Positions 22,388 to 54,961 of a stretch of 58,029 bases of DNA are shown here, piece after piece (the first letter of the stretch is position 1; each line of letters begins with the position of its first letter). Both the position numbers and the translations under genes were made by a program. The stretch is from Verrucomicrobia bacterium LW23 (GTDB lineage Bacteria; Verrucomicrobiota; Verrucomicrobiia; Methylacidiphilales; UBA1321): positions 1 through 58,029 of the forward strand of contig QAZA01000002.1 of assembly GCA_003054695.1 (NCBI GenBank). Reading direction: 5' to 3'. The notes beneath the pieces were generated by a model. That model saw nothing but the letters and a program-made list of their open reading frames with translations, searched no databases and was not told where the DNA came from.

Positions 22388-23485
22388 CTAGATTCGGGCC
22401 GCCTTGGCAGAGGGCGCTGCTTTGGTAATGTCCGCTTGTTTGCGCAGGGTCCGGCCCTCGTGGAACTCGCTGTTGATCAGCAGGATGCGCGATTCTTCGT
22501 CGCGCAGCTGGATGTTTTCTTCCACAAAATTGATCAGCATTTCGGTCGCAACGGCTCCCAGCCGCGCCGTTTGCTGATACATGCCGGAGAGTTCGTCGTC
22601 CCTGCTGCAATCGAGATGGAGGAAGCCGAGCTGGTCTGGGACAGCGAGGTTGAGATTGAGCGTCCAGAGCCACAGCTCCCTGGTCACACCCACGATAACC
22701 TCCGGGCTATGCTGCCTGAACCAGTGGCGGAATGCCTCCTCGGACCAGACGGCAGGTTCGAAGATGCGAAGCTCGATCTGCGGGTATTTGCGGCTGGCGA
22801 CGGTCAGGCCTGCGATCCAGAGGTGGTTAACCTGGCGGATATCGCTCTCGCTCAGGGCGACGCCGATGGTGCGGTAGCCGCGCGCCGCGAGGTTCTGGAT
22901 CGCGGTCTCGATCGTCTGCAGATGATGATTGCAGACGCGCGGCACCCAGGGGGTCGCCAGGGAGTACCCCATCGTCACGGCGCTCATGGTGCTCAGGTCG
23001 ACATTCAGCTCCGTTGTCCCGTGAGGCAGCGGCGCGATGAGCACACCGGGGATGCCGCGCGCGTTCAGCATCTGGACAAAGCGTGATGTGTTTTGCCGGT
23101 ACTCGCCAAGCCAGAAATGCTCCAGCGAGTAACCCGAATGCGCAGCCCGCTCCTGCGCTCCCCGAAAATACTCCGGAAAAGTGTGGAGCGTACGCCAGTA
23201 GTCCGCCGACCTCAGGTTGGTGAGAAACGCCAGCGTGGCCTTATAGCTGGTTTTGCGCCCCTGGCGGATCTGCGTCATCAGGGCCCGCACCATGGGGTTG
23301 GGCTTGTACTGCAGCTCATCCGCAATCTTCCGTATCCGCAGCCGCGTCTCCTGCGCCACCCTGGGGGAGTTGCGCAGCGCCATCGAAACCAGGGCGCGCG
23401 TTACTCCGGCTATGTCCGCAATGCTCTGCAAGGTTACCTTCTCGGGGACTTTTGGCGGCGGGGGATTCGGAAGGTCTTCACTCAT
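22388..23485 (-). CDS. LacI-family transcriptional regulator (LacI-1)
   Basis: This 365-residue DNA-binding regulator probably responds to a sugar. The HTH and hinge lie at about residues 17-70 ('VTLQSIADIAGVTRALVSMAL'), followed by a periplasmic-binding-protein-like sensor domain. ATG 23483-23485 is used; the longer reading starts with a TTG three codons upstream. It belongs to the same subfamily as the regulator at 47922-48941: both share 'RGAQERA', 'NHHL' and 'RGYRxIG' blocks in the same order. It lies downstream of Verru_Chthon cassette 1 on the same strand, separated by one small exported protein. Its paralogue abuts cassette 2. Confidence 0.93.
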   Translation of the reverse strand: MSEDLPNPPPPKVPEKVTLQSIADIAGVTRALVSMALRNSPRVAQETRLRIRKIADELQYKPNPMVRALMTQIRQGRKTSYKATLAFLTNLRSADYWRTLHTFPEYFRGAQERAAHSGYSLEHFWLGEYRQNTSRFVQMLNARGIPGVLIAPLPHGTTELNVDLSTMSAVTMGYSLATPWVPRVCNHHLQTIETAIQNLAARGYRTIGVALSESDIRQVNHLWIAGLTVASRKYPQIELRIFEPAVWSEEAFRHWFRQHSPEVIVGVTRELWLWTLNLNLAVPDQLGFLHLDCSRDDELSGMYQQTARLGAVATEMLINFVEENIQLRDEESRILLINSEFHEGRTLRKQADITKAAPSAKAARI

Positions 23486-23585
23486 GGCGGGCAACGGGGG
23501 GAGCCGTTGTGACGTAGCCTAGCGAAGAAAGGCGCACGGCGCAATGCGGTAGCGACGGGCCGGGCGCACGCCGCCCGCTGGTCGG

Positions 23586-24284
23586 TCAGCGATCCGTAAT
23601 GTTGGCGCGGCGGATCGTCTCTTCGTCCGTCCACGCAAGGGACCAGGCGCGGTTCAGCCGGGGATTCAGCTCGTCGACCCGGAACATGGGGACGGGGTTG
23701 GGCAGCCTAGCCACCCGAGTACCGGCTTTTGCCGCCAGCGCCTGAAGCTCGGCTGTTTTGATTCGCCCAAGCCAGGCCTCGGCGGCGCCGCGCGGCTGAT
23801 GCTCCGTTTCAATGCGAAGGATAAACCGGCCGGCCACCCACACAAAGAGATTCTCCCTGCCGGCAGGCGGCGAGGAATCTTTGATCGCGGGAAACGTCCC
23901 GATCGTGGTGCGATCCGGATTGCCTGTAACCAGGAACATGCTGTTGAACGCGGGAAAGCCGCCCGTGTCCGTAAGCGTAACCGCTGTCTTCGGGACCAGT
24001 GCCGGCCCTCCCGACGCGGCGGCCGGAATCGGCTGGCCTTCCCAGACTCGCGTTGCGATAACCTGCACCCACTCGCTGTTGTAATCGCTGCGCGCCCTGG
24101 ATTCGGTCAGCTTCCAGTCGGCGTCCCCCGGCGAAAGCACCGCAAGGAGGGCGCGGGCGTCAGCCGGCATGACGGGAGGTGTCTCCTGGGCAAGGGCGGT
24201 GGAACGCCATGCAACGGCAATTGTAACCGCAACAGCGGCAATGCTTAAAGCAAAACGAAAGAAGTGGCGGGCTGAATTCAGCAT
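23586..24284 (-). CDS. Small exported protein of unknown function
   Basis: I do not recognise this 232-residue protein. Residues 1-33 form a clear signal peptide ending near 'STALAQE'. The mature part is soluble-looking, with 'PADARALLAVLSPGDADWKL' near the start and a 'GRENLFVWVAGRFILRIE' segment, and no cysteines or membrane spans. The start at ATG 24282-24284 is chosen because AGGA lies 5 nt upstream and a signal peptide follows directly; the longer reading adds 27 residues with no such feature. It sits between the 3' end of cassette 1 and LacI-1 on the same strand, so a link with the cassette is possible but unproven. Confidence 0.75.
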   Translation of the reverse strand: MLNSARHFFRFALSIAAVAVTIAVAWRSTALAQETPPVMPADARALLAVLSPGDADWKLTESRARSDYNSEWVQVIATRVWEGQPIPAAASGGPALVPKTAVTLTDTGGFPAFNSMFLVTGNPDRTTIGTFPAIKDSSPPAGRENLFVWVAGRFILRIETEHQPRGAAEAWLGRIKTAELQALAAKAGTRVARLPNPVPMFRVDELNPRLNRAWSLAWTDEETIRRANITDR

Positions 24285-24363
24285 AAGAATCCTGGTGCTT
24301 TTAAAATAGTATGTAGCCAATGGATTTACCTCTCCGAAACCTGGTGCCTTTGTGCCTAAGCCC

Positions 24364-24387
24364 AATTCGCATATAACTTTGCGAATT
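24364..24387. repeat. AATTCGC hairpin element (copy 1)
   Basis: AATTCGC (24364-24370) and GCGAATT (24381-24387) flank a 10-nt loop. On the minus strand it begins AATTCGCAAAGTTAT, a 15-mer also present in the hairpin at 35342-35384. Each copy lies about 80-130 bp upstream of a minus-strand gene for an exported protein. Confidence 0.6.
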
Positions 24388-24452
24388 TCCCATCTCGGAA
24401 GCTTTGCTAGTCTCCTAAGTCAAAAATACGTATCATTAGCTTGCTACCCCCT

Positions 24453-24569
24453 CCGTTCCGCCCCTTTGTGTCTTCGTGCCTTTGTGGTTAAATAATCCCC
24501 ATTCCCATTTTGCAGAGAAGAGGGGGAACATTAACTACAAAGACACGAAGACACAAAGGGGCGGAACGG
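24453..24569. repeat. 39-nt inverted repeat pair of phrase-like type
   Basis: The arms 24453-24491 and 24531-24569 are reverse complements with two mismatches in 39 positions, around a 39-nt centre. Each arm contains 'TTTGTGTCTTCGTG' and '(G/A)GTTAA', the wording of a phrase-like intergenic repeat. The pair sits directly after the 3' end of Verru_Chthon A. Confidence 0.85.
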
Positions 24570-24585
24570 AACTTATGATATTTAG

Positions 24586-24604
24586 TTCTGATTCAGGACA
24601 CTAG
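24586..24604. repeat. 19-bp repeat overlapping a stop codon (copy 2)
   Basis: TTCTGATTCAGGACACTAG covers the stop codon of Verru_Chthon A. It differs by one base from the copy at 45-63, which covers the stop codon of the giant adhesin. Confidence 0.7.
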
Positions 24605-27600
24605 TTGGTGAGGTACTTGAAGTAGATAATCCGGTACTTCATCAGCGCGCGCAGAGGATTATCCGCCCTGTCCAGCTCCGTTCTCGCGGCTGTGCGGGGA
24701 ATCGCGTACGACTCGGCGAAGGACGGGGCGTCCGGGCCGTCGATGGCGCCGAAGGTGCGTGTCGGCACGGCGCCCAGCACCGGCCCATCCTGGGGCGCGG
24801 TTGCGCTGGTGGCGAGTTCATCGTAGGCGCCGGACGTGGCGTGGCCGTTTCCAGGCACGCCGTCGCGGCCCGGCCAGACGTAGCGCTCGATGACCGCGTA
24901 GAAGCGCTTCTCGCCCAGCACTTTGTCCTTTGCTTCAAACTCGCCGTAACCGGTGTTCTCCGGCGCCTTTTTGACGGACTGCGCCACGCCGTAGACGCTG
25001 AACACGTTGGACTGCGTTGTCATGCAACCCGAAAGATGGCGGACGATCGCCTCCTTGTCGTAATCGGTGGGGCCGTTGCCGTTCTCCGTTACGCCGGGCA
25101 CTTCGCAGATCTGGCCGACGTAGTCGAACCGGCCGCCACTGTCCTGGTAGTCGGCCACGGCCTGGGCAATGTTGTCGCCGTTGGGCATATGGCGAAACAG
25201 CGCCTGCAGGGGCACCACCCGGCGGGCGGGCGTAAAATGGGGGCTATTGGCCGGGTAGATCCTGCTGTTCAGGTTAATCTTGCCTGCCGTGCTGTTCATC
25301 GCCGAAATCGGGGTCGCTTCCTGGTCGCCGTTGACTTTGGTGGGGTTGCGCAGGTAGGAGCAGCCGAGCAGATCCAGAAAGAGCCAGTCCGGCAAGGTGG
25401 CCGGCACCTGCCCGGGCGAGACGGCGGGCGTGCTCGCCTTCAGGGAGAGCGTTTGCCCGGGCGCGTTCCGCCGCATTCCCGTGGATACGAGCGAGAACAT
25501 GCCGGGGGCCGTCCAGCGCGTGGGATAGGTGAGGCCGGACTGGGTGCTGTCGTTATTGAGCTTGGATTCCGCCGGCCCGCGCATGTCCCAGAAGCGGTTC
25601 TTGCTCATGTCGAGGGACGGTGCGGCGAGCGTGCGCGTGTTGATGCCGCCAAGGCTGTCCGCGTCCACCACCTGCCAGTTTTCCACCTTGGCGTTCACGC
25701 GCGAATCGACGACCTCCTGCGACTGAACAACCGTCGCGGTGGTCGCGCCGAATTTATCCAGCGTAAGCGTGATGTTGAAAGGCACGGCGCCCCCGTTGGT
25801 TTTGGCCCTGTAGATTGGATTATCCGCCGGGGCGTTGGGAGAGAAGACGGGGACCAGATCAACAGGGCGGTTGTAGTACTTGCTGTTGTTGTCCATAAAG
25901 CCGGTGGAGTTGCCCATGCGCAGCCACGCGGTAATCTTGACAGTGCTCTCCGGCTTAAAGAGCGCGCGGAACTTGGCCGTGCTGGTGGAGGCCGGATAGG
26001 AGAGCGCCGCGTCGACGCCGCTGGAGGTGTAATTGCTCAGGTACTTCTGGTTTGTCGCGGCCACATAGTAGCTATCCGGGTTCAGCATCATGGTGTTTTG
26101 CGGCGTCCACGACAGCGCGTTGAGCGGCACCGCGGACCAGCCTCCATTCGGCAGATTGAACGTCTGCGAAAGCGATGCGCTGGTGATGTTGTTTGCCACA
26201 ATTCCCGGCGATTCGGCGGTGTAGGAAAGGTATGCCGTCCGGACAAAAAACGCCTGCTTGTTGTCGGCGGGAGTTGTGTCGTACGCATCAAACGCCATGG
26301 CGTCGGGATGCATATACATTTCGAACTGCACGGAGAAGCGAAGGTAATAGCCCTTCAAGGTTGTCACGCTGCCCGTGGTGGTGAAAACCGGCTCCGGGGT
26401 AATGCACAGGGCAATCTCGTTAAGGCGCGGGCCGGGAAGCTGCGGCAGCATGGGTTCGCCGGTGGCCGGGCCGCGCCAGAGATAGCGGTCGGGCGGCTGG
26501 GCTGCGGCGTAGGGGTAGTCGGCGGCGATCATCGTGTTGTTCAGCTCCGCAAGCCGCCCCGGCAGGCTTTGCGGGGAGGACGGGCTGCCGGGCGATCCCG
26601 TGTAGGCGGTGGCGAGCGAGCCCATGCCGAGAAGATTGAGGGCAACCTGATCCGCCTCCGCATCGCCAGTGGAGCCTCCGCCCCACTTCATGGCAAAACT
26701 CTGCGCGGGCATCCCCGGCCAGTCGGAGCGGCGGAAGTAATCCGACAACCGCGAGAAGAGCGGCTGCATCAGCGCGCGGTCGCTGGTGTCCATCTTCCTG
26801 CTATTGGCCGAGGAGAATGTCTGCGTATCCCAGAAGTTTGTCGGCTGATACTCATCCAGGGCATGCTGATACATGGGCGCCCTGCTCAACGAGGCAAGGC
26901 CGCCGGTGACAAAGATGCGCGACTTGCCAAACGCGTTGAACTCCGGGCTGCGGCTGAACGGCGTGAGGTAGAACTTGTTGCGACTGTAAAACGCGTCCGC
27001 GTTGGTGACGTAGTCCTCGTTGCGGATCGCATCCGGCGCCCGCAGGAATCCCCTGGCGTAGATATCGCCATAAAGCTTGTTGCGAATCTTCGAGTCCGCC
27101 GTCTCCAGGATATCGAGGTTGACCGAGGCGGGATGCCCCAGAATGTACTCCATAACCGAGAAGGTGGTATCCGGCGAGGTGCCGTAGCCGATTTTTCGCC
27201 GGATGCGGGGGCTAAGGCTTGTGTAGGGGCTTGCGGCATCCAGACGCATCTTCGCCGCCGTGTCGGACGGTTTGCCCGAAGCCGTGTTAAAGTTGATGCG
27301 CGCGCTCTCGTCGTCCATCCAGAACGCATAGCGCCCGGCAATCTTGTTATTCGCGCCGGCGCTTTGCGTGGCGTCCTGCAGCACGGGTATCCACTTTACC
27401 CGCATGGGCTCGCCGCCGGGGCTAATCGCGTATTCGCCGGAGACGGCCTCCTTCGTGTTCAGGTTCACCGACTCCAGATCGGAATCACTCGATGCCGCGC
27501 CGGAGTGGAGATCGATAAACGAAACCGCGCTGCCGGGGCCCAAGATGGTCAGCCGTCCCGGGTTGCTCGCCCAGTTCTTAACGGTGCCGGGCGCGGGAAG

Positions 27601-27870
27601 GGAGCCGGGCGCGGACGGGCTGGGGATGTTGTTGGCCAGCAGCGACATCGCATGGGCCAGGGCGCAGTCCGCCACGTGTTTGGTCTGCCCGTTCGTCCAG
27701 TTGGAGTGAGAGGCGATCCGCTCGGTGCGCATGGACGAAACGAAGCCCACGATGAGCGTGGTCAGAATCATCAGGAAGAGCAGCGTGATGACCACGGCGG
27801 TTCCCCTGCGGCTTGCACCGCTTTTGCCGCGGCGGCGATTGAGGCGGATGGAGCGAAGGAGGGTACTCAT
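24601..27870 (-). CDS. Verru_Chthon cassette protein A (cassette 1), GspK-like large pseudopilin
   Basis: This 1,089-residue protein is the last and largest of a four-gene cassette. The N-terminus is basic (1-23) and then has one hydrophobic helix (about 24-47, 'GTAVVITLLFLMILTTLIV'). It resembles a prepilin helix with Gly23 at the cleavage point, but position +5 is Ile28 rather than Glu. This is also the hallmark of GspK, the tip pseudopilin of type II secretion. The remainder is a large Ser/Thr/Asn-rich exported domain. A C-terminal block 'DKEAIVRHLSG...VLGEKRFYAVIERYVW' is shared with the A protein of cassette 2. The ATG overlaps the stop codon of gene C by one base (TAATG), so translation is coupled. 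Function is unknown; a role at the tip of a pilus-like fibre is my inference. Confidence 0.88.
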   Translation of the reverse strand: MSTLLRSIRLNRRRGKSGASRRGTAVVITLLFLMILTTLIVGFVSSMRTERIASHSNWTNGQTKHVADCALAHAMSLLANNIPSPSAPGSLPAPGTVKNWASNPGRLTILGPGSAVSFIDLHSGAASSDSDLESVNLNTKEAVSGEYAISPGGEPMRVKWIPVLQDATQSAGANNKIAGRYAFWMDDESARINFNTASGKPSDTAAKMRLDAASPYTSLSPRIRRKIGYGTSPDTTFSVMEYILGHPASVNLDILETADSKIRNKLYGDIYARGFLRAPDAIRNEDYVTNADAFYSRNKFYLTPFSRSPEFNAFGKSRIFVTGGLASLSRAPMYQHALDEYQPTNFWDTQTFSSANSRKMDTSDRALMQPLFSRLSDYFRRSDWPGMPAQSFAMKWGGGSTGDAEADQVALNLLGMGSLATAYTGSPGSPSSPQSLPGRLAELNNTMIAADYPYAAAQPPDRYLWRGPATGEPMLPQLPGPRLNEIALCITPEPVFTTTGSVTTLKGYYLRFSVQFEMYMHPDAMAFDAYDTTPADNKQAFFVRTAYLSYTAESPGIVANNITSASLSQTFNLPNGGWSAVPLNALSWTPQNTMMLNPDSYYVAATNQKYLSNYTSSGVDAALSYPASTSTAKFRALFKPESTVKITAWLRMGNSTGFMDNNSKYYNRPVDLVPVFSPNAPADNPIYRAKTNGGAVPFNITLTLDKFGATTATVVQSQEVVDSRVNAKVENWQVVDADSLGGINTRTLAAPSLDMSKNRFWDMRGPAESKLNNDSTQSGLTYPTRWTAPGMFSLVSTGMRRNAPGQTLSLKASTPAVSPGQVPATLPDWLFLDLLGCSYLRNPTKVNGDQEATPISAMNSTAGKINLNSRIYPANSPHFTPARRVVPLQALFRHMPNGDNIAQAVADYQDSGGRFDYVGQICEVPGVTENGNGPTDYDKEAIVRHLSGCMTTQSNVFSVYGVAQSVKKAPENTGYGEFEAKDKVLGEKRFYAVIERYVWPGRDGVPGNGHATSGAYDELATSATAPQDGPVLGAVPTRTFGAIDGPDAPSFAESYAIPRTAARTELDRADNPLRALMKYRIIYFKYLTN

Positions 27871-28856
27871 TATGGCAATGCGTTGGTTAGCGGGACGCGG
27901 ACGACAAGGGTTTCGGCGGGGATCCGCGCTTCGGCCAGTTCGGCCTGAAACTCCCGGATCTGGTCAGGAATATCGACGGCGGTGGTGGGAGGCGGCATCG
28001 TGGGCAGCATCGGCTTGCGCGCCAGCGTGCGCGAATCCACAAGCACGAGTGTAATCTCGATGCTTCCCGGCAGACGATGAGCCGGCTGGGCCGAGGCGGT
28101 AAGGTACTGAAAGGTATCGCCGGAGCTGAACGCCCCGTCCCGGCCCGCCATCTGAAACGGCGCCGCCGAGTTAAACTGCATCGGCGTCGCCCCCGCCAGG
28201 CCGGGCGCCGCGCTGAGAAAGGGGATCGGATTCCCGGCGGTGTCGAGGCATCGGATCCACATCCCGACAACGCCATCGGCCACGGTGGACACCGCGCAGT
28301 TGGTGCTTTCGGGATCGAACAGCGACGGATCGCAGGCGGAAAGCCAGGGCGTGGTGTTCCAGGCGGGGGCGGTCGTTCCCGCCTGGTACCAGGGGCTATC
28401 CGGGGCCAGGAGAAAGCGGTTGAGCCGATAGATGCCGGCCGCGTCGTCCCGCGTGAGGTAGTAGCCGATCTCGCACAGGCTGGTGCTTGTGGCTCCGGGG
28501 CGGGTCCGGCTCGGCGTATCCACGGGGGCTATCCAGAAGAGACTGCTGGAATTGGCCGCCACGGCAGGGGGTGTGGTGACAAGGCCGGTGAGTCGCGGCG
28601 TTTGCACCAGCTGAAATCGATCCGAAACCAGCGCCCCGGTGAGTTCGCGCGACATGAGCTCCAGCACCGCACGCCCGGTTTGCATGGAGTCCACCTTCTG
28701 GAAGCTGCTGATCCAGATCCGCTGCACGCCCTGAGTGGTAACCAGCAGTATCCCCAAAAGCAGCGCAAAGACACCCATCGAGACGATGAGCTCGATAAGC
28801 GTGACGCCCCGTTTGCCTGACCCGCGGCGGCGGCGATGTGGTACTGCCTGCTTCAT
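27870..28856 (-). CDS. Verru_Chthon cassette protein C (cassette 1), GspJ-like prepilin
   Basis: This 328-residue protein has a classical type IV prepilin N-terminus: a basic leader, Gly17 as the cleavage residue, then 'VTLIELIVSMGVFALLL' with Glu22 at +5. The 'GVF' within the helix resembles GspJ. The exported domain contains two Cys pairs in 'SACDPSLFDPESTNCAV' and 'WIRCLD'. It should be processed by prepilin peptidase and inserted in the inner membrane before assembly. Its start overlaps the stop of gene B by four bases (ATGA) and its stop overlaps the start of gene A. No peptidase or assembly ATPase gene is nearby, so it must rely on machinery encoded elsewhere. Confidence 0.88.
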   Translation of the reverse strand: MKQAVPHRRRRGSGKRGVTLIELIVSMGVFALLLGILLVTTQGVQRIWISSFQKVDSMQTGRAVLELMSRELTGALVSDRFQLVQTPRLTGLVTTPPAVAANSSSLFWIAPVDTPSRTRPGATSTSLCEIGYYLTRDDAAGIYRLNRFLLAPDSPWYQAGTTAPAWNTTPWLSACDPSLFDPESTNCAVSTVADGVVGMWIRCLDTAGNPIPFLSAAPGLAGATPMQFNSAAPFQMAGRDGAFSSGDTFQYLTASAQPAHRLPGSIEITLVLVDSRTLARKPMLPTMPPPTTAVDIPDQIREFQAELAEARIPAETLVVRVPLTNALP

Positions 28857-29395
28857 TGGTTAACCTTCGGCTGGTAAGAGGGGCTGGCCGACTCCCATCC
28901 GCGATCCGTGGCGGGAGTAACCAGAATGCTGAACCTTCGTCGCTGATTGCCGATCGGCGCTCCAGTCGCGCGATCGAGCGGCCAGGCTATGGCGACAGCG
29001 GCCACCGCCAGCCGCGCGTTGGGCGGCGGGGACGCATGGGGCCCGATGGTTACATCCACCCGATAAACGGCGGTGGGATATCCCTCCGATTCATCCGCAA
29101 CCGCCGCAAGGCCGGATTTATCGTAGAAGAGCGGCGCCAGGTCGGTTGTCTGGCCGGAAGCCAGCGCTGCGTCCGAGGGAAACGGAGTACCGTCCAACCT
29201 CACTTTCACGTCCTGCAGGATGAGGCTGGTGATCGAGTCGCTGATCGATTCCTTCAGCGAAGTAACGCCCACCGCCATAAGGCTCAGGATGGAGAGGATC
29301 GCCAGGGCCATAATGCCTAGTGCCAGAGCAGCTTCCACCAGCGAGAAGGCGCGGAGGCCGTAGAGAGCGGCAAGGCGGCGGGGAGGCGTTGTCAT
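28853..29395 (-). CDS. Verru_Chthon cassette protein B (cassette 1), GspI-like prepilin
   Basis: This is a 180-residue prepilin-like protein. The leader ends at Ala16, followed by 'FSLVEAALALGIMALAIL' with Glu21 at +5. The 'SLVE..LALGI' pattern and short length match GspI among type II minor pseudopilins. The mature domain is small, without Cys. It is second in the D-B-C-A order, 69 nt after gene D and overlapping gene C by four bases. The purine-rich stretch just upstream (around 29400-29445) provides several possible ribosome binding sites. Confidence 0.87.
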   Translation of the reverse strand: MTTPPRRLAALYGLRAFSLVEAALALGIMALAILSILSLMAVGVTSLKESISDSITSLILQDVKVRLDGTPFPSDAALASGQTTDLAPLFYDKSGLAAVADESEGYPTAVYRVDVTIGPHASPPPNARLAVAAVAIAWPLDRATGAPIGNQRRRFSILVTPATDRGWESASPSYQPKVNQ

Positions 29396-29464
29396 TGCGG
29401 TGCGGCGAGGAAGAGAGGAGGAAGGAGGAATATTAAGAAGAAGGGCCGGCCGGTTTGCCGATTT

Positions 29465-30112
29465 TCAGTTTCCGGGCCGATTGCAGCGAAGCCGCCCGGT
29501 GTGGATGCTGGCCGCAATCTGCGCCCAGTTGGCCGGCGTGCCACCCGCCGCGAAAGATTGCGAGCAAGCGAGCGCAAACCACACCTCGTAGCCGCTGCCG
29601 CCCGCCGTCGTCCGCACCGCGCCCGCCGGGGTAAACTCCAGGTACTGCATCGTCACCGTCTGCGACCTTACCGTGCACGAGGCGGTGGCCCCTGCCTTGC
29701 CAAAGATGCTCTCCGCGGCGCCCTGGCCTGTAGGGCGGGGCACGTAGCGCGCCGCATCGGGGTCGATAGCGACTCCCGCGGGCAGCATCTCCCACTTTGT
29801 AATCTGCGTCCACGAGCCATCCTCGCCCGACGCGGAAGCCCAGAGGCTGATCATGCGGTAGCTGGCGGTGGGATCGCCCGGCCATTCGGTCGCCACCGCA
29901 AACCGCACCAGTTGGCGCCGCGTAATCGCCTCCGTCCGCGCCACGGTCAGCAGATTGATCGTAGCGGTAGCACCGTTGTTCAGGGCGGTGCCGGCGAGCG
30001 AGTTTCCGAAGGAAGGAATGAGGGCGGCCGTAACCGCGACGATGGCGACCACGGACAAAAGTTCGATAAGGCTGAATCCCGGGCTGCGCTTGCGTAGGGC
30101 GGATATTTGCAC
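29465..30112 (-). CDS. Verru_Chthon cassette protein D (cassette 1), GspH-like prepilin
   Basis: This is a 215-residue prepilin-like protein and the first gene of cassette 1. I start at GTG 30110-30112: it has a strong AGGAG five bases upstream (30118-30122) and gives the compact leader 'QISALRKRSPG' before Gly12. An ATG 21 codons upstream lacks such a signal. The helix 'FSLIELLSVVAIVAVTAAL' follows with Glu17 at +5. The mature domain resembles GspH/FimT-type minor pilins in size. Its promoter faces the beta-helix gene at 30381 and the gap has two operator-like sequences, so the whole cassette is probably repressed by a LacI-type protein. Confidence 0.88.
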   Translation of the reverse strand: MQISALRKRSPGFSLIELLSVVAIVAVTAALIPSFGNSLAGTALNNGATATINLLTVARTEAITRRQLVRFAVATEWPGDPTASYRMISLWASASGEDGSWTQITKWEMLPAGVAIDPDAARYVPRPTGQGAAESIFGKAGATASCTVRSQTVTMQYLEFTPAGAVRTTAGGSGYEVWFALACSQSFAAGGTPANWAQIAASIHTGRLRCNRPGN

Positions 30113-30117
30113 GTGGG

Positions 30118-30122: not shown

Positions 30123-30219
30123 GATAAAGGGGTGAGGTTTGAGCAATGGGATGCACAAATCCGTATTGCAATCATGGCTACATCATGCCATGTGCCCGCC
30201 GGCGAACAATCGGATGTCA

Positions 30220-30235
30220 GTTTAACTGGTTAAAC
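30220..30235. promoter_or_regulatory. LacI-type operator, copy 1, in divergent cassette 1/beta-helix promoter
   Basis: GTTTAACTGGTTAAAC is a perfect 7-2-7 inverted repeat, in the style of LacI-family operators. It is 107 bp upstream of cassette 1 gene D. Its reverse complement extended by two bases (CTGTTTAACCAGTTAAAC) closely matches copy 2 at 30284. Confidence 0.65.
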
Positions 30236-30283
30236 AGGAGTCATATTTAGCCAAAAACAGGCTGGATGCGGGTTGTCCACCCT

Positions 30284-30304
30284 CTGTTTAACGAGTAAAA
30301 ACAG
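30284..30304. promoter_or_regulatory. LacI-type operator, copy 2, upstream of beta-helix gene
   Basis: The sequence starts CTGTTTAACGAGTAAAA and ends in ACAG. Over 15 aligned bases it differs at only two positions from the reverse complement of the perfect palindrome at 30220-30235. It lies 76 bp upstream of the beta-helix protein ATG at 30381. A pair of sites in a divergent promoter is typical of repression by a tetramer or two dimers. Confidence 0.55.
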
Positions 30305-30380
30305 ACATCCTTTGCGGCGCAACGCAGGCGATGCCAGCATTTACCTCGTCACCGTGTACCAACTCCCTCGCTCTCATCCT

Positions 30381-35384: not shown

Positions 35385-35396
35385 AATGCTGGAAGT

Positions 35397-40810: not shown

Positions 40811-40824
40811 ATCCACCACCACGT

Positions 40825-45536: not shown

Positions 45537-45804
45537 AAGTATTAACGTTCCTCTTTACCTATTGACATCACGACAGACGAGGTGGGTTATCTCGCACACG
45601 TGGGCGTAGCTTAACCCAGGATAAGCAAATGACAAACCGAATGGTGATTATGTTCATCTACTGAGTGACGTATTCTTTAACATTGCATCCCATTTGCTTC
45701 ATCAGAAGTAGTTTATGACATTCTTCCACACGTCATCCTCTCAGGCGTCATTGGCTCAGGAGGCCTTCGTCAAGCCGTTCCACGTCTATAGACATCTTTA
45801 TACC

Positions 45805-47790: not shown

Positions 47791-47921
47791 TAGCCTGATG
47801 ATGATGGTGGCGTGAAGATCTTGCGGAGTTACGGAAAGACGGCCCCCTCTTTTGATGCGCCAGGATGCGGGCATGGGGCCGCCGCTCCGGTGGCGCGACA
47901 ATCGTAAGGAGAATCCGCGGA

Positions 47922-48941
47922 TCACGCTCTCCTGAGGATGCTGTTGCCTTCCTGCCACCGGCTTTCAATCAGCATTGTACGCGGGGTTTCCGGTATCCCT
48001 CGCTCATTTCGATATACCTGGCCCACAAGCATGTCGACAGCCAGACTGCCCACCAGGTTGTGCTGTTGGTCTATCCCGGCCATATGGGGTCTCCCCGCGG
48101 GCCAGTCAAGCAGCAAGAAACCTATGTCAGCTGGAATCTTGAGGCCGGCATTTGCTATCATGTCTGCAATAAGGGGATCAACCGCAACGATGCAATCGGG
48201 TTTCTCCTTGGACAGCCATGCCAGAAGATCATCTTTCCTTGTGGTTTTGGGGTTAAACGGAGTCACTCTTTGGTCGCATGGAAGTGACGGCTGGTAGGCA
48301 AGAAAGGCATCAAGGTAACAGTTGTCCGACCTTGCGTTGGTCTCCGACGATACGCACAGGCCGATGCGGCGATAACCACGCCGGCTCAACTCACGAAGGG
48401 CCACACGTACGGAATGGAGATGGTGGTTGGCCGCGCGATGTACCAACGGGCGCCGCATGGAATATCCCAGAGCCACAAAACTGAATCTGCGCCAGTCGAG
48501 CCGCATGTGTCCTCCCCCATGAGAAATAGGGGCAAGAATAAGTCCCTGGATCGCGCGATGATCGAGGATCTGGCTCAATCTTTTGCCCGTCATGCCGGGC
48601 TCCCGCAGATTGAAGCTGTCAAGTGCGTAGCCCTGGCTGGTGGCCCTTTCCTGGGCACCGCGGTACATGGCCAAAATGGTGGGACTGGCCTTCCAGGCAT
48701 CGTTACTCCAATCCGTTATCCAGGCAAGCGTGCCGGTGTAGGGCGCGCGCCGTGATTCGCCAAGATGAGTGGCCAAACGCTGGATCAGCGGGTCGGGGCG
48801 GTAATTCAGCTCAGCGGCAAGTCTTTGGATCCGTTCACGGGTGGCGATCGGAATTTTAGGACAGTCACGCAAGGCACGGGAAACGGTCATGCGCGAAACA
48901 CCCGCAGCGGCTGCCACTGTTTGCATTGTCACTTTACTCAT
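47922..48941 (-). CDS. LacI-family transcriptional regulator (LacI-3), paralogue of LacI-1
   Basis: This 339-residue regulator has an HTH at residues 3-25 ('VTMQTVAAAAGVSRMTVSRAL') and a sensor domain beginning 'TGTLAWITDW'. 'YRGAQERATSQGYALDSFNL', 'ANHHLHSVRVAL' and 'RGYRRIGLCVS' match equivalent blocks of LacI-1 at 22388-23485 in order and spacing. ATG 48939-48941 is used because GGAG lies 7 nt upstream and the family N-terminus starts there. The gene is divergent from cassette 2, whose first gene begins 258 bp away. A short palindrome at 49129-49139 lies between them. Direct control of the cassette is a reasonable inference. Confidence 0.93.
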   Translation of the reverse strand: MSKVTMQTVAAAAGVSRMTVSRALRDCPKIPIATRERIQRLAAELNYRPDPLIQRLATHLGESRRAPYTGTLAWITDWSNDAWKASPTILAMYRGAQERATSQGYALDSFNLREPGMTGKRLSQILDHRAIQGLILAPISHGGGHMRLDWRRFSFVALGYSMRRPLVHRAANHHLHSVRVALRELSRRGYRRIGLCVSSETNARSDNCYLDAFLAYQPSLPCDQRVTPFNPKTTRKDDLLAWLSKEKPDCIVAVDPLIADMIANAGLKIPADIGFLLLDWPAGRPHMAGIDQQHNLVGSLAVDMLVGQVYRNERGIPETPRTMLIESRWQEGNSILRRA

Positions 48942-49128
48942 CCAGGTACTCCAACAAGAGGGGAAGAACGCTCTATTCAAGTCAAATGGAATGAATGTCC
49001 ATGGCCCGCGAGGCAATTTCTCGGATTAATGAGTGATTAAGGCCCATTCGCTGCCGATAATATGAACCAGTGTTACTTGCATGACGCAATCAAACGCGCC
49101 GCAAAGCGCCGTCGAAGCCTTGCGCCGG

Positions 49129-49139
49129 GTTACGGTAAC
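49129..49139. promoter_or_regulatory. Candidate operator upstream of cassette 2
   Basis: GTTACGGTAAC is a perfect inverted repeat around a single central base, 60 bp before the cassette 2 gene D ATG. It shares the GTT..AAC frame with the cassette 1 operator but is shorter. Confidence 0.4.
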
Positions 49140-49199
49140 ATGACCCTTGTCTTGTTTGCAAACATCAGTGCATTAGATTGAAGAGCATAAATTTCTGCT

Positions 49200-49889
49200 A
49201 TGAAAAATGCTTCCTCCATGCTGTCGGTGCCGATAGGGAACAATGCACATACCGGGAGCCGCCGCTCCGCATTTTCGCTGATCGAGCTTCTCCTGACCAT
49301 TTCCATAATGGCGCTGCTCACAGGCATTGCAGCACCTTCCATAGGATACCTTGCGGACGGGGGAATGACGAGCGTGGAAGCAAAATCGGAGGCAATTTTA
49401 CAGCAGGCCCTTCAACACGCCGTCACCCAACGAACCTTTGTGAGGGTTGGGCTCGCCAGCTACACGGACACCGCCAGCGGTCGCCAGAGCTTGTTGTGCG
49501 TAGCGATTGCAAGCACAACAGGGGATCTCCGGTCGGAAGAGTTTGATGATGAGGCATCATGGCGTCAACTTGCGATTCCTGTTGCATTGCGCGGAGTCAA
49601 GCTGGACGACTCTCATATTCCTCAGTCCAGTGTAATGGTTTCAGTTTCCCAGAGCTCTTATCCAGCTTTTGAGCGCAAGAGTGGTAACTCGAGCACGGTT
49701 TTCAGCCATGTGTTCCAAATAGACCCCCAGGGGCAGGTCACTCTGGGAAAGAGCGTCTATCCCCGCGAAGTGGTTCTTCCGCTGGCAAATCCCCAAAGGC
49801 CAGGCAATCCCGTTGTGATATCGATATCAGGACTTACGGGTAAAGTTCGCGCGATGAGGAAGGAGCAGCTTATAGCTCTTAACAAGTAA
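49200..49889 (+). CDS. Verru_Chthon cassette protein D (cassette 2), GspH-like prepilin
   Basis: This 229-residue prepilin-like protein is the first gene of cassette 2. The leader ends at Ala24, followed by 'FSLIELLLTISIMALLTGI' with Glu29 at +5. The mature domain has the 'EAILQQALQHAVTQRTFVRV' segment seen in the D protein of cassette 1 ('ATINLLTVARTEAITRRQLVRF'), so the two are homologous though diverged. It should be processed by a prepilin peptidase encoded elsewhere. Gene B follows after 19 nt. LacI-3 lies divergently upstream. Confidence 0.87.
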   Translation: MKNASSMLSVPIGNNAHTGSRRSAFSLIELLLTISIMALLTGIAAPSIGYLADGGMTSVEAKSEAILQQALQHAVTQRTFVRVGLASYTDTASGRQSLLCVAIASTTGDLRSEEFDDEASWRQLAIPVALRGVKLDDSHIPQSSVMVSVSQSSYPAFERKSGNSSTVFSHVFQIDPQGQVTLGKSVYPREVVLPLANPQRPGNPVVISISGLTGKVRAMRKEQLIALNK

Positions 49890-49908
49890 GACTTTTTGTG
49901 GTTAAGCT

Positions 49909-50478
49909 ATGAACGCAAGCCTACGCAGGAGTAGTAAGGGGTTTTCGCTGGTTGAGGTGTCTGTTGCCTTAGGTCTCACAACGTTCACACTATTGACGGT
50001 TGTAGGCCTTATGCTTGTAGGATTGCAGACCGCCAGTGTCAGCGGGCAGGAAACCCAGGCCATTAATCTTCTCAGCGCTGCTGCTTCAGACCTTCAGAAC
50101 GTTTCTCTTAGCGCCACAGAGTCGAAGATCTTTAAGTTTTCACCTGCCCCGTGGGCAAAAGACAACAATCATGCGGTTGTCGTAAACCCCTCCCTACAGG
50201 CTGGAAAAACGATAACCGTTTGCGTGACTGATAACTACGAGGTTGTTCCTCCTGAAGATCCGCTCGCGCGATTCAGGTTGACTCTTCGCTACACACGAGT
50301 TCCCGGCGCATCAGGCGTGGCATCGCTGGTGCCGGGCGACCAGGCAGGAAGCTCTCCGCTTGCTCCGATTGAAGCAGTGTTAATAGTGAGCTGGCCCGCG
50401 AGCAAGGATCCCATGTCTTCCGAGAACAAGCCTCAAGGTTGGATAGAAAGCTATCTTACATTCCGGAAACCTTTATGA
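49909..50478 (+). CDS. Verru_Chthon cassette protein B (cassette 2), GspI-like prepilin
   Basis: This 189-residue prepilin-like protein has a short leader ending at Gly11, then 'FSLVEVSVALGLTTFTLLTV' with Glu16 at +5. 'SLVEVSVAL' closely resembles the GspI start. Like the cassette 1 B protein, its next segment ('LMLVGLQTASVSGQETQAINLL') continues the pilin helix. The stop codon overlaps the ATG of gene C by four bases (ATGA), the same junction as in cassette 1. Confidence 0.87.
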   Translation: MNASLRRSSKGFSLVEVSVALGLTTFTLLTVVGLMLVGLQTASVSGQETQAINLLSAAASDLQNVSLSATESKIFKFSPAPWAKDNNHAVVVNPSLQAGKTITVCVTDNYEVVPPEDPLARFRLTLRYTRVPGASGVASLVPGDQAGSSPLAPIEAVLIVSWPASKDPMSSENKPQGWIESYLTFRKPL

Positions 50479-51377
50479 ACACAAAGCCGCTTTATTCGTT
50501 CAGCAGAAGGTCGGGATGCTTCGTGTCGCTGCCCAACGGCCTGCGCTATCAGCAACGTGGGGCCTTTAGTCTGACAGAACTCATGGTTGCAGTAGGCATC
50601 TTCTCGATTATGTGTGTAGTGTTACTACAGATAGTGAACGGATCGGGGGATGTTATCCGTATTAATCAGCGGCGATTCAGCGCAGATAATCAGGCCCGAT
50701 TTATACTCGACCGTATCGGGCTTGACCTCGAAGCTATGTTCCCACGGCGGGATCTTCCTCGATACTTTGCTAACGTCCAGACGGGGAAAGACTTTCTTAA
50801 GCTTATCGCCGACGTTCCCGCCTCGTCCGGAGACAGGAGGGCTGCTTTGATAGCCTGGCGTATCTCCCCCGATCCCGGAACAGGAAAGCTGTCGTTGCGC
50901 CGCGCGGCGAAAGGGCTGGACTTTTCGCAAACCGGCTGGGTAGGGCTTCGAATTTCCGACAACCTGCCAATCACCTTTGCAGACATAGTCCATCCGGCGT
51001 TCAACCTTGTCGATCCAGATTTTGATACGTTGGGTGAAGGAGTTGTGCGGGTTGGACTAGCTTTTCAAGAGCGCGGAACCGGAGAATTGCTTAAAGACGC
51101 TCCTTCGTTATCCAACGGTTCGCCTGATCTATCGCGTACTGCAGCTATCTCGGTAACACTGGTTGTAATTGATACGGAGGCTTCAAACAAGCTAACCAAC
51201 GCCCAGTTACAGAGTTTAGCATCAGCCTTTCCGGAGCCTGTAGACGAAGTGCCGTTGGCCCAAAGCTGGGGAGCTATTGCGGCCAATTCGGAAGGATTTC
51301 CAGGTATTCCAGCCGATGTTTCCAAGAGATTACGTGTCTATCAGCGCTTCTATCCGCTGTGCAACTTTTCAAACTAA
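50475..51377 (+). CDS. Verru_Chthon cassette protein C (cassette 2), GspJ-like prepilin
   Basis: This 300-residue prepilin-like protein has a leader ending at Ala30, then 'FSLTELMVAVGIFSIMCVVLLQI' with Glu35 at +5. The 'VGIF' within the helix is typical of GspJ. 'ADNQARFILDRIGLDLEAMF' after the helix matches the 'QTGRAVLELMSRELTGALV' segment of the cassette 1 C protein. I use ATG 50475, which overlaps the end of gene B; the longer frame begins at a TTG 12 codons upstream. The A gene begins 20 nt after the stop. Confidence 0.87.
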   Translation: MNTKPLYSFSRRSGCFVSLPNGLRYQQRGAFSLTELMVAVGIFSIMCVVLLQIVNGSGDVIRINQRRFSADNQARFILDRIGLDLEAMFPRRDLPRYFANVQTGKDFLKLIADVPASSGDRRAALIAWRISPDPGTGKLSLRRAAKGLDFSQTGWVGLRISDNLPITFADIVHPAFNLVDPDFDTLGEGVVRVGLAFQERGTGELLKDAPSLSNGSPDLSRTAAISVTLVVIDTEASNKLTNAQLQSLASAFPEPVDEVPLAQSWGAIAANSEGFPGIPADVSKRLRVYQRFYPLCNFSN

Positions 51378-51397
51378 TCCCAGCCCATCCAGATCGT

Positions 51398-54300
51398 ATG
51401 GAACAATTGCCCTTCTTCGGAAATTTTCGGACGAGCGGAAAGTCAAAGTGCGTGTTCAGAGGTGACGACCGCTCCGGCAAACGTGCTGCCGCTCTGGTCC
51501 TGACTCTCTGCTTTGTCATCATGATGACATCGCTTGTATTGGTCTTCTTCATCCGAACACAGAACTCTCAGCAACTGTCCTTCAGCAGTACCAATCAGTA
51601 TCGTGCAGCACAGCTTGCGCGCAGTGCCTCAGAAGTCATTATTGGAGAGCTGCGAAGCCAGATTGCCTCTCCGACATTTTCTGAGACCATCTCTGCTGAT
51701 ATCGGAAACGATGCGTTTCGGCCACTCGATGGCACCAAAGCGTATGCATACGTGCCCGCCTCGGTTCGTGCATTACGTCAATCAAAAGGCGGCGGCTACC
51801 TCACCCTGCTGAATTGGGCGGAAAACGACACTGGCGCCGGAGGAGCAGGCGCAGCGCTGTATCCTGGAGGCAGGAATCTTCTTTCCGGATACTCGGGAGC
51901 CGCCGTCAGCACGGATCAAAATAGCAAAAACGGCAGTTCCCTCGCGTTAGAGACCCGATACAGTGTTTCACCCGGGCTGGTGCAAGAGAATTCGGACCTC
52001 GGCATGTCACTCCCGGGTCGCTGGGTACTTGTAACACGCTCCGGTATTCAAAGCCTGGCGGACGGTGGAGCTCTCCCCGACGGTGCGGACACACCCGGGG
52101 CCGACAATGCGGTAACCGGACGTTTTACCTACTATATCTATGATCTTGGGTCTCTGGCAGATGCCAACGCTGCGGGCTTTCCGGCAAGTGCCTTTACGGT
52201 AAATCAAAAAGGCGCGAAATCCAATGTAGCCTCTCTGGACCTAAATCAGATTGTACCTGGCAGCGGCAACGCCATTACAGACTGGAGGCATCAATCTACC
52301 GCCCCGTCCTTCGCGTCATATCTTTCAGACTTCGCAACTCCCCAGGGTTTCCTTACCGTACCAGTAGGTGACAATGCTTTTCTCAGCAGGCAGGACCTGC
52401 TTCGATTTATCGATAATAAGGTTGGAACGAGTGCTTCCGCCCGCTCCTCCGCACAATACCTTACTCACTTTTCGCGGGCCTCCACCACCCCTTGCTGGTC
52501 CCCGGCGTACGATGCGGAGCATGCCGGAGGATCAGCTACATTTAAGTACAAGACGGACTCCGGAAGCCCAGGCTCCATTAACCGGGATTTTCTTAGTGTC
52601 CGGGCCAAAGCAAGCTTCACCCGTCTATATGGTCAGGACGTTAGTCCAGGGGATCTGTTGGTGGGGGCACGGTTCCCTCTTTCACGACTTTCGTGGCTGA
52701 TCGATGGAAACTTGAGCACCACAACATTCGAACCCTCTTCGGAGCTCACGAAAGACTTGGCAGCAATCAACGCTTCTCGTGCGAGGTATGGAGCCTCTCC
52801 GTTAAGTGAGAATGGGTTGATCCAGGCCGCTTTTGGTTTGGTATGGGACTCTCCCAGCGGTAGCTGGATTTACGCTGGAGCCAGCGGAAATACGGTGCGA
52901 AGCAATATTCTTACGCTCGATCAAGTCGCCTCAGAGGATCGCGAGCCAAACTTTATCGAGCTACTACGAGCTGCAGTCCTCCACGGCTCTCTCGGTCTGC
53001 GGTCAAGGTCCTTTGGCCCCTTTAATGATGGCTCTAACTTCGTTGTAGATTCCAGCTTCCTGGCAGAAGGACAGATCATACAGATAGCTGCCAACATCCT
53101 GGATCAGTACGATCGAGACAGTTTCCCCTGCCGAATCCAGTTTGGGACTCGCCGAACAGGCTCTGCGACAACGGCTTCCTGTTATTACGGGATCGAAAAT
53201 GTTCCCTATATTGCGCGACTGGCAATAAATGCCTACAGGCCAAACTCGAACGGAGGTACAACCGTTTCCTTCAGTGCCAAGCGTGACTACCTGTCGGCGT
53301 GGATTGAACCAGTTCTCTGGAACGTATCGATTGGATCCACTACAGCAGAGCCAGCATCTTATCGGATACGTCTGCTTTCCGGGCAAATCTGGGGCATGAC
53401 CGACGATGCGCAGGGAGGTCCGGGAGGAAATCATGGCGACAAGCATCTGTCCCCATCTCGTACAAATCTGTCTCCAGCGATAACCTGGTCTTCGTCCGGA
53501 TCGGGAAGCCTCAGCAGCATATTTTCATCACCGAAACTCCTAAGAGATTTGCTACCATCCCAGGGCTCAGTTACTGGTGGTCCTAACGATATATTTTCTG
53601 AGAATGGAAGTACCATCGCAGGGATGTGGATAGGTCAGACCCTGGCTGCCACTTATCCGCAAGATACCGCTTCACTCTATAACTATACTAACTTCAGAGT
53701 TAACTGGTCCGCGGTCAGTGGCGCTGGGCCAACAGGGCCAACTTTTGCGCTTGAAGCAAATTATGGAGGCAGTAACTGGCGGGAAATACAACGCATTACA
53801 TGGCGTAACGCTCCTTCAAGGCAGTCTCTGCCCATCAGCAACTGTACAGAGAGCTCCAGCCTGAGATTTACCGCCACCGAACGTCGAGGCTCCGATTTGG
53901 CTTACCTGGATCCTCGGTCTGCACGATTCGGAATGCATTCGCACGGGCCAGGGTTCAAAACCTCCGGCTTCTACGTCCTCCCCACCACGTCCACTACATC
54001 TTTCTTCACGCGAACTCTGTTTTCGGACGCGACGAACGCGCAGGACTCCTGCATCTACCTTCCGAATGGAACAGAGTTTTCCGTACCAACCGGAAGCGCG
54101 CCGCTGTATCGTCTTGCAGACAACTCCGCCGCACCGGGGACTGCGCCAACCTACAAGGATGTAGACGGAGTCCAGCGCCCCGGCGACGGGTGGTGGAGCA
54201 GTGCGACGGTCAACACCCTTCCTCTTCGCACCGATGGTGAGACGAATCGCTCTATTCACCTCAACCGCCCCTTCACCAACCTGGCGGAACTGGGCTACGT

Positions 54301-54961
54301 CTTCCGCGATACCCCGTGGAAATCGCTGGACCTCGTCTCCTCCAAGAGTGCCGACGCAGGCCTTCTGGATGTATTTACACTCAGCGAGGGCGAAGGAGCA
54401 TTTCCTTCGGTTGCAGGGCGAGTTGCACTTAACTCACCTCACCAGCGAATCATGCAGGCTCTGATTAAGGACGTTGCTTCGAATCCTTCGTCGGCCTCCC
54501 CCACCTATTACTCCGCTGCGGATGCCGACACGCTCGCCACCGCCCTTACGGGAAGTGGCACTTCCGAGGGATACCTCTACACTAGCGAAATGGGCCCCAG
54601 CACTCGTACACCTGTCGGAATAAGCGGTCTTGTTGTCCCCACCGTAAGTAATCCCGGCGAACTGGCAGGCTTTTTGGATCAGAACCAAACCGGGCCTGCT
54701 TTTGTAGGTTCCAAGGCCAAACGCATCAAAGGTGAACGTGAAGGAATTGTACGTGCACTCGCCGGAACTACTCAGGGCGGAACCTGGAACATCCTCATAG
54801 ATGTTACCGCTCAAGTCGGTCGTTACCCAAAGGGTGCCAAAACTCAACAGGATTTTCTCGTGCTGGGCGAGAAACGCTACTGGTTATCCATAGCGATTGA
54901 CCGTTTCACAGGCAAAATCATTGGCGAGCAGCTCGAGCCCGTTACTCGCTTTGATCCCTGA
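51398..54961 (+). CDS. Verru_Chthon cassette protein A (cassette 2), GspK-like large pseudopilin
   Basis: This 1,187-residue protein is the large member of cassette 2. The N-terminus is basic to about residue 29. A single hydrophobic helix 'AAALVLTLCFVIMMTSLVLV' follows with no Glu at +5, as in the cassette 1 A protein and in GspK. The rest is a large exported domain rich in Ser, Thr, Gly and Asn. The C-terminal block 'EREGIVRALAGTTQ...FLVLGEKRYWLSIAIDR' aligns with 'KEAIVRHLSGCMTT...KVLGEKRFYAVIER' of cassette 1, while the middle is strongly diverged. ATG 51398 is used; an upstream GTG at 51359 overlaps gene C and adds 13 residues. Diverged middles with conserved ends suggest different binding targets. 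Confidence 0.87.
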   Translation: MEQLPFFGNFRTSGKSKCVFRGDDRSGKRAAALVLTLCFVIMMTSLVLVFFIRTQNSQQLSFSSTNQYRAAQLARSASEVIIGELRSQIASPTFSETISADIGNDAFRPLDGTKAYAYVPASVRALRQSKGGGYLTLLNWAENDTGAGGAGAALYPGGRNLLSGYSGAAVSTDQNSKNGSSLALETRYSVSPGLVQENSDLGMSLPGRWVLVTRSGIQSLADGGALPDGADTPGADNAVTGRFTYYIYDLGSLADANAAGFPASAFTVNQKGAKSNVASLDLNQIVPGSGNAITDWRHQSTAPSFASYLSDFATPQGFLTVPVGDNAFLSRQDLLRFIDNKVGTSASARSSAQYLTHFSRASTTPCWSPAYDAEHAGGSATFKYKTDSGSPGSINRDFLSVRAKASFTRLYGQDVSPGDLLVGARFPLSRLSWLIDGNLSTTTFEPSSELTKDLAAINASRARYGASPLSENGLIQAAFGLVWDSPSGSWIYAGASGNTVRSNILTLDQVASEDREPNFIELLRAAVLHGSLGLRSRSFGPFNDGSNFVVDSSFLAEGQIIQIAANILDQYDRDSFPCRIQFGTRRTGSATTASCYYGIENVPYIARLAINAYRPNSNGGTTVSFSAKRDYLSAWIEPVLWNVSIGSTTAEPASYRIRLLSGQIWGMTDDAQGGPGGNHGDKHLSPSRTNLSPAITWSSSGSGSLSSIFSSPKLLRDLLPSQGSVTGGPNDIFSENGSTIAGMWIGQTLAATYPQDTASLYNYTNFRVNWSAVSGAGPTGPTFALEANYGGSNWREIQRITWRNAPSRQSLPISNCTESSSLRFTATERRGSDLAYLDPRSARFGMHSHGPGFKTSGFYVLPTTSTTSFFTRTLFSDATNAQDSCIYLPNGTEFSVPTGSAPLYRLADNSAAPGTAPTYKDVDGVQRPGDGWWSSATVNTLPLRTDGETNRSIHLNRPFTNLAELGYVFRDTPWKSLDLVSSKSADAGLLDVFTLSEGEGAFPSVAGRVALNSPHQRIMQALIKDVASNPSSASPTYYSAADADTLATALTGSGTSEGYLYTSEMGPSTRTPVGISGLVVPTVSNPGELAGFLDQNQTGPAFVGSKAKRIKGEREGIVRALAGTTQGGTWNILIDVTAQVGRYPKGAKTQQDFLVLGEKRYWLSIAIDRFTGKIIGEQLEPVTRFDP

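Follow-up and report, generated by a model that had tools for sequence, protein, structure and literature searches.

LacI-linked minor-pseudopilin cassettes with a predicted giant GspK beside carbohydrate-active genes in a verrucomicrobial genome

We analysed a contig of Verrucomicrobia bacterium LW23 (QAZA01000002.1, 58,029 nucleotides), which is referred to as the window and is the whole of contig C2 in a 56-contig genome of 6.6 Mb. The window carries two four-gene cassettes, each encoding three small pseudopilin-like proteins (D, B and C) and one very large protein (A), and each cassette stands close to a gene for a LacI-type regulator and a gene for a secreted beta-helix protein. A sequence-only reading of this DNA had taken the two arrangements for a repeated module, and our gene calls place the cassettes, the LacI genes and the beta-helix genes at the positions and in the arrangement that it had described. 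Gene calling relied on a simple hexamer model made for this analysis, and the start positions given are approximate.

Two cassettes and their neighbours in the window

Cassette 1 lies on the minus strand and runs D-B-C-A, followed on the same strand by a gene for a secreted protein of 259 amino acids and then by LacI-1, with the beta-helix gene divergent from D. Protein D (29465..30112, alternative start 30175) is a GspH-like minor pseudopilin that matches TIGR02596 (4.5e-10) and the GspH model TIGR01708 (8e-5), and proteins B (28853..29395; TIGR02598, 4.1e-10) and C (27870..28856; TIGR02599, 3.6e-10) are minor pseudopilins as well. Protein A (24601..27870, 1089 amino acids) is giant and GspK-like, with a match to TIGR02600 below the cut-off (7.2e-39) and a weak match to GspK (0.0033). 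The 259-residue protein encoded after A, E-beta (23586..24365), had gone unmentioned in the sequence-only reading; it is an accessory protein of one cassette clade and had no match in Pfam or NCBIfam. LacI-1 (22388..23485), the last gene of the module, has a helix-turn-helix domain over the cut-off (PF00356, 1.6e-12) and a sugar-binding domain, Peripla_BP_3, that falls below it (0.009). On the plus strand, the beta-helix gene (from an ATG at 30381 to 32276) encodes a protein with a signal peptide, MLHRLCLPAVLLPIFALFAALSLLAQ, recognised by eye, and a match to PF13229 below the cut-off (8e-4); no close solved relative of this protein was found. Between A and E, at 24452-24570, there is an inverted repeat with 40-nucleotide arms, 95% complementary, around TTTGTGTCTTCGTGCCTTTGTGG; it resembles either a dispersed repeat of intergenic regions or the hairpin of a terminator.

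Cassette 1 D and the beta-helix gene have a promoter region in common (30176-30380), and two palindromes lie within it. The first, GTTTAACTGGTTAAAC at 30220..30235, is perfect and is a candidate operator; GTTTAACNNGTTAAAC has a single exact match in the 6.6 Mb genome, at that very position, and is restricted to module 1. The second copy, GTTTAACGAGTAAAAA at 30286..30301, stands 50 bp from the first and is imperfect, with 2 mismatches, being one of only 11 sites in the genome with no more than 2 mismatches to GTTTAACNNGTTAAAC. The paired palindromes suggest that one repressor may control cassette 1 and the beta-helix gene together, and LacI-1 would be the obvious candidate.

Cassette 2 has the same D-B-C-A order on the plus strand, where D (49200..49889; TIGR02596, 6e-6), B (49909..50478; TIGR02598, 2e-7) and C (50475..51377; TIGR02599, 8.6e-5) are again minor pseudopilins, and A (about 51398..54961) is a protein of ~1190 amino acids. 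LacI-3 (47922..48941, minus strand) is divergent from D and has both the helix-turn-helix (PF00356, 5e-14) and the sugar-binding domain (Peripla_BP_3, PF13377, 3.3e-9) over the cut-offs. Beyond LacI-3, on the plus strand, lie the gene for a secreted beta-helix enzyme (45715..47790; PF12708, 5.5e-28) and then a neighbouring gene for a secreted alpha/beta-hydrolase that resembles acetyl-xylan esterases (44022..45536; PF01738, 1.6e-7, and PF05448, 1e-6, both over the cut-off). The beta-helix enzyme matches the beta-1,3-glucanases 3eqn (3e-17) and 5m5z (2.5e-13), in two stretches each; we take both glucanases to belong to glycoside hydrolase family 55 (GH55) and describe the enzyme as GH55-type and beta-1,3-glucanase-like. 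Cassette 2 is followed by a gene for a GFO/IDH/MocA sugar-type oxidoreductase (55199..56242, plus strand; PF01408, 4.5e-20), a possible member of the module whose family adjoins other cassettes too. No site as clear as that of module 1 was seen in module 2, where there is only an imperfect palindrome directly before D (49184-49199).

Two further observations concern the window as a whole. The genes from 42363 to 58029, which include LacI-2, LacI-3 and cassette 2, have a third-position GC of 0.52-0.65 as compared with ~0.8 in the genes just before them, and this stretch is possibly a horizontally acquired island. At the other end, 60-7667 encodes a secreted protein of 2535 amino acids that begins with an N-terminus of the haemagglutinin type, has stretches of beta-helix and carries many repeats towards its C-terminus.

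Pseudopilin identity of the cassettes and the predicted fold of protein A

In each cassette the proteins D, B and C match the NCBIfam Verru_Chthon models, as does A of cassette 1, all of them below the curated cut-offs (for instance, 133.5 against 332.3 bits for A and 39.9 against 70 for D). Protein A of cassette 2 had no match in NCBIfam or Pfam and was assigned by an iterated profile and a tree. On these sequence comparisons we class the two cassettes of the window as divergent relatives of the Verru_Chthon cassette and not as members proper. The D, B and C proteins carry prepilin cleavage motifs (GFSLIE, AFSLVE, GVTLIE and similar). The prepilin motif model TIGR02532 is matched above its cut-off by two proteins of cassette 1 (D and C) and one of cassette 2 (D), and the other motifs, among them AFSLVE in B of cassette 1 and AFSLTE in C of cassette 2, were read in the sequence. 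Protein A has an N-terminal hydrophobic helix that lacks Glu+5, as is the case for GspK.

Searching the A profiles against the PDB by sequence gave nothing useful and missed the GspK fold. Relatives of cassette 2 A were collected phylum-wide (163, of which 80 were kept), and an AlphaFold model of this protein was built from an alignment that drew on 52 relatives from across the phylum (mean pLDDT 75, pTM 0.84). The model aligns with XcpX from the XcpGHIJK pseudopilus model (9a1f_T) at Z 12.9, over 261 of 295 residues at 4.9 Å, and with GspK (3ci0_K) at Z 12.4, over 247 of 280 residues at 4.3 Å; the third structural match, a type IV minor pilin, reached only Z 4.7. The GspK match surfaced only in a second look with VIA-align, as GspK was absent from the best 50 of Foldseek's own ranking. 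The pilin part of the model is formed by the N-terminal helix and the last three C-terminal strands, with helical stretches between them. We conclude that cassette 2 A is predicted to have a complete GspK fold that holds a beta-rich insert, and would thus be a giant GspK. The structural evidence for this fold is the cassette 2 A model, and for cassette 1 A there is the weak sequence match to GspK given above. Because A is predicted to hold the GspK fold, the cassette is best read as encoding a GspH-I-J-K-like set of minor pseudopilins, with D, B, C and A as the putative equivalents of GspH, I, J and K.

None of the cassettes in the genome includes an ATPase, a secretin or a major pilin, and since these core genes are missing, a tip built from cassette proteins would have to rely on machinery encoded elsewhere. 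The genome has one type II secretion system (T2SS)-type operon (C17:66-86 kb) with GspD and PilC/GspF homologues, an assembly ATPase and small pseudopilins of its own. It also has a separate PilB/PilC-like cluster and several type IV pilus-type ATPases.

The beta-rich insert of A comprises ~300 residues, around 543-850 of the model, some of which have low prediction confidence. Its structural matches are weak and of the beta-sandwich kind (Z 4.5 for DUF4876 and close to 3 for C2 folds), and structure comparison gave no confident carbohydrate-binding match. One alternative is that the cassettes make swappable adhesive tips, which would cap type IV or T2SS-type pili. The giant A proteins would then bind different polymers and let the cell hold on to a substrate that its own enzymes also attack, the enzymes being exported otherwise. 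The size of A, 3-4 times that of a normal GspK, and the beta-rich insert with its weak beta-sandwich matches would suit such a role, as would the several type IV pilus-type ATPases and the Sec-type signal peptides seen by eye in the adjoining enzymes. Against it stand the low-confidence part of the insert and the missing carbohydrate-binding match, and a pure adhesin would not need the tight linkage to enzyme genes that is described below. We regard purely adhesive tips as rather unlikely.

Regulators and enzymes beside the cassettes

The genome was searched for further cassettes, and 81 stretches (1.63 Mb) were re-annotated. This census gave about 40 cassettes (40 as counted), 36 of them with an A gene. 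The tree of A proteins has three main groups, alpha (n=17), beta (n=7) and gamma (n=11), and one unplaced long branch. Alpha cassettes are of the canonical TIGR02600 type and mostly have the order B-C-A-D. The beta clade, which holds cassette 1, and the gamma clade, which holds cassette 2, are mostly D-B-C-A and are often followed by a gene for an E secreted protein. Because the two window A proteins belong to different, well-supported clades, a recent duplication of one module is ruled out. The term repeated module in the sequence-only reading is to be corrected in this sense.

At L079, L082 and L083, and also in a relative, the gene that immediately follows A is a homologue of E-beta. The 80 gamma loci from across the phylum hold 55 full-length copies of E-gamma, which follows A in most gamma cassettes (e.g. 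L155, 13086-13766), and is predicted to have a LolA/LppX/RseB-type fold (pLDDT 89; RseB, Z 11.2; LolA-like 4mxt, Z 10.5). A joint alignment first suggested a single E family, yet it included unrelated genes (prfB-like L081_6 and nusB L063_7). With no profile match between the two families, the idea that E-beta is a LolA/RseB-like E-gamma was ruled out.

Some other loci of the census deserve mention. The stretches C9:1-19900 and C10:128500-148400 of genome G000 (L125 and L126) are mirror images of each other in gene order, do not differ in their match scores, and represent either a duplicated region or an assembly duplicate. Locus L096 (9896-12353) has a B, C, D cassette without A, a LacI gene divergent at 84 bp and a following gene for a carbohydrate-binding module (CBM) plus deacetylase-type protein. 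In L065 (3764-5854), a 696-residue protein with an N-terminus that is GntR-like by eye is encoded directly upstream of an alpha cassette.

LacI genes are concentrated near the cassettes, as the sequence-only reading had led us to expect. Sixteen of the 45 LacI genes in the genome lie within 2.6 kb of one of the 40 cassettes, where 3.1 were expected (p=2.6e-8), and the linked cassettes are spread over the A groups (alpha 5, beta 4, gamma 6 and one without A). In complete lists of LacI and B genes from 15 relatives, 35 LacI genes stood no more than 8 kb from a B gene, where 9.2 were expected (p=6e-11), and in one of these relatives with a single-contig genome (G018) 8 of 13 LacI genes were so placed. 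A lack of LacI enrichment, which the sequence-only reading had named as grounds for refutation, was thus seen neither in this genome nor in the relatives. We conclude that the link between LacI genes and cassettes is real.

The link does not depend on a particular kind of LacI protein. A tree of 39 LacI proteins places LacI-1 and LacI-3 in a supergroup of 23 and LacI-2 in a supergroup of 16 (support 100), in agreement with the assignment of the first two, and not the third, to one subfamily. The further suggestion that this subfamily is the specific partner of the cassettes did not hold, as supergroup did not predict linkage (11/23 vs 5/16 linked, p=0.34). A cassette-specific LacI lineage was likewise ruled out, with linked LacI proteins scattered over the tree (13 label changes vs 12.6 in shuffles). 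Elsewhere the same place is taken by GntR regulators with a LacI-type sugar domain (L085, L133), by a GntR regulator (L134) or by an AraC regulator (L078). Because the linked LacI proteins are not one lineage and the window A proteins belong to different clades, the module arose more than once.

Carbohydrate-active or beta-helix proteins are encoded within two genes of 12 of 13 LacI-linked cassettes, a set that leaves aside L064, L072 and L111. The neighbours of LacI-linked cassettes include GH28, GH36 and GH29 with an MFS_2 transporter (L084), GH95 with MFS_2 (L091), GH2 and a GH5/39-like protein (L068), GH16 (L066), the CBM plus deacetylase-type protein of L096, CBM9 (L093), a BNR-repeat protein and a GDSL esterase (L075), PF12708 enzymes (L090 and the window) and beta-helix proteins (L083, L087 and the window). 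Only 2 of 10 randomly chosen unlinked cassettes have such a protein as immediate neighbour (Fisher p=7e-4), a contrast that is somewhat flattered because the control was stricter on distance. In one relative, genes for an alpha-rhamnosidase, a LacI protein, a GH5-mannanase-like protein, D-B-C-A, another LacI protein and a beta-xylanase stand in a row. Taken together, regulators of the sugar type, tip cassettes of pseudopilins and secreted proteins that act on polysaccharides do recur in company, as had been claimed, and the cassette partners are carbohydrate-active secreted proteins generally (GH2, 16, 28, 95, GH55-like, CBM9, deacetylase).

The beta-helix fold itself, which had been singled out as a partner, is one of several enzyme folds. 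Beta-helix genes lie within 6 kb of 6 of the 16 LacI-linked cassettes and of none of the 24 others (p=0.002), or of 4/14 against 0/24 once the two window modules are set aside (p ~0.014). Near all cassettes, the enrichment is weak and marginal (6 vs 3.0 expected, p=0.07), and the beta-helix does not appear in the list of the top 25 families that adjoin gamma cassettes across the phylum. We therefore rule out the beta-helix as the defining partner. A different observation was made in the related loci L149-L228. Of the 64 genes that immediately precede gamma cassettes there, 7 encode PATR repeats and 7 a PEP-CTERM sorting signal, the latter as compared with 2/126 in the far-flank control. We consider these proteins a second kind of surface partner.

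Neighbourhood alone can arise by hitch-hiking, if abundant cassettes, LacI genes and carbohydrate-active enzymes (CAZymes) gather in horizontally acquired carbohydrate islands with no joint function. The shift in third-position GC across the module 2 stretch would fit this explanation, and the far flanks of gamma cassettes (>5 kb) are also rich in sugar regulators, with Peripla_BP_3 in 9/126 genes vs 14/126 adjoining the cassettes. In contrast, the distance from LacI gene to cassette is only 63-533 bp at 8 cassettes of the genome, the association turns up again in relatives and in each of the three A clades, and the promoter common to cassette 1 and the beta-helix gene contains a genome-unique palindrome. 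Thus we think it improbable that hitch-hiking accounts for the module.

The proposed sugar-inducible tip and known systems

We favour, with moderate confidence, the interpretation that the module is a sugar-inducible unit in which a dedicated pseudopilus tip is made with secreted carbohydrate-active proteins and is served by a shared T2SS. The analysis itself establishes the gene sets, how many there are and what they are linked to, that A is predicted to have a GspK fold, and that two palindromes lie in the shared module 1 promoter. Control by sugar, a role for the common T2SS and specificity for cargo are what we infer from these. In the presence of the target polymer, sugar released from it would lift LacI repression and the cell would then make the tip and the enzymes together. 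The giant GspK A would have its extra beta-rich domain at the very tip. The machinery used would most likely be that of the genome's single T2SS-type operon, or else type IV pilus machinery. The tip may prime or cap a pseudopilus that moves or presents the enzyme or enzymes of its own locus; alternatively, it may keep enzymes and polymer at the cell surface.

Several observations weigh against this proposal. The data do not favour assembly of the tip with the T2SS over assembly with type IV pilus machinery. In the genome, 24 of the 40 cassettes have no LacI gene within 2.6 kb, and several are surrounded by housekeeping genes (mutS/lepA and nusB, for example). Across the phylum, the 2 kb around gamma cassettes show no more than about a twofold excess in the density of LacI genes (11 in 276 kb vs 14 in 753 kb), which is borderline (p about 0.02-0.07). 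The partner count allowed up to two genes per side for linked cassettes and one for the unlinked control. LacI-1 is not divergent from the palindromes assigned to it. Finally, a comparison of upstream regions with a control found no palindrome common to many cassettes, and a single operator for many cassettes was set aside, although upstream palindrome scores were slightly above control (p=0.036).

Independent experimental support for a coupling of pseudopilins to polysaccharide use comes from Verruconatronum alginivorum, although no cassette is described there. A pseudopilin gene of this organism lies inside an alginate-induced lyase cluster, a pseudopilin was over-expressed on alginate in proteomes of a single replicate per condition, and 67 homologues are present in the genome (PMC13274419). 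Extending the sugar-inducible tip to the whole genome, we tentatively suggest one secretion core with ~40 interchangeable tips, many of them sugar-induced, in which each giant-GspK tip would select the cargo of its own locus or hold polymer. If this is true, the choice of T2SS substrates could be switched by gene regulation. Tips that select cargo would also explain how a single T2SS might handle many substrates, a long-standing question of substrate recognition.

How Verrucomicrobia export or retain their many polysaccharide-degrading enzymes is poorly understood, and NCBIfam assigns no function to the Verru_Chthon cassettes. Our analysis gives them a concrete identity, as a minor-pseudopilin tip set with a predicted giant GspK, and a testable role in polysaccharide use. 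The sequence-only reading had spoken of an undescribed system. In part this needs correction, as the cassette is a named NCBIfam set, and the cassette as a gene set without function, GspHIJK and loci of the polysaccharide utilization locus (PUL) kind are already known. The regulated linkage to CAZymes and the giant GspK are another matter. The open-access literature gave neither a text match for 'Verru_Chthon cassette' nor an account of CAZyme loci in which a cassette is linked to a LacI or GntR gene, such absence being no proof, and we found no description of A as a giant GspK.

The window cassettes share with the Verru_Chthon cassette (TIGR02596/TIGR02598/TIGR02599/TIGR02600) a set of four genes (D, B, C and A) that stand side by side, prepilin-type N-termini and many copies per genome. 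They differ in being ordered D-B-C-A where the canonical order is B-C-A-D, in the extra secreted gene E that is often present and in the linkage of some copies to LacI and CAZyme genes. Similarly, the T2SS minor pseudopilins GspH/XcpU, GspI/XcpV, GspJ/XcpW and GspK/XcpX comprise three small prepilin-like proteins and one large protein without Glu+5. Cassette A proteins, however, have about 1,000-1,450 amino acids as compared with ~300 in the usual GspK, and the cassettes are orphans that number ~40 per genome and stand apart from the T2SS-type operon. The alginate cluster of V. alginivorum, a member of the Opitutales, is alike in having a pulG-like pseudopilin in an induced polysaccharide-lyase cluster, but what is described there is a single pulG-like gene rather than a D-B-C-A cassette with its own LacI (PMC13274419). 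Finally, cassette loci resemble PULs in having clustered secreted CAZymes (glycoside hydrolases or lyases) and a local sugar-type regulator, sometimes together with an MFS_2 sugar transporter (L084, L091). What sets them apart from PULs is that here a pseudopilin tip cassette belongs to the locus.

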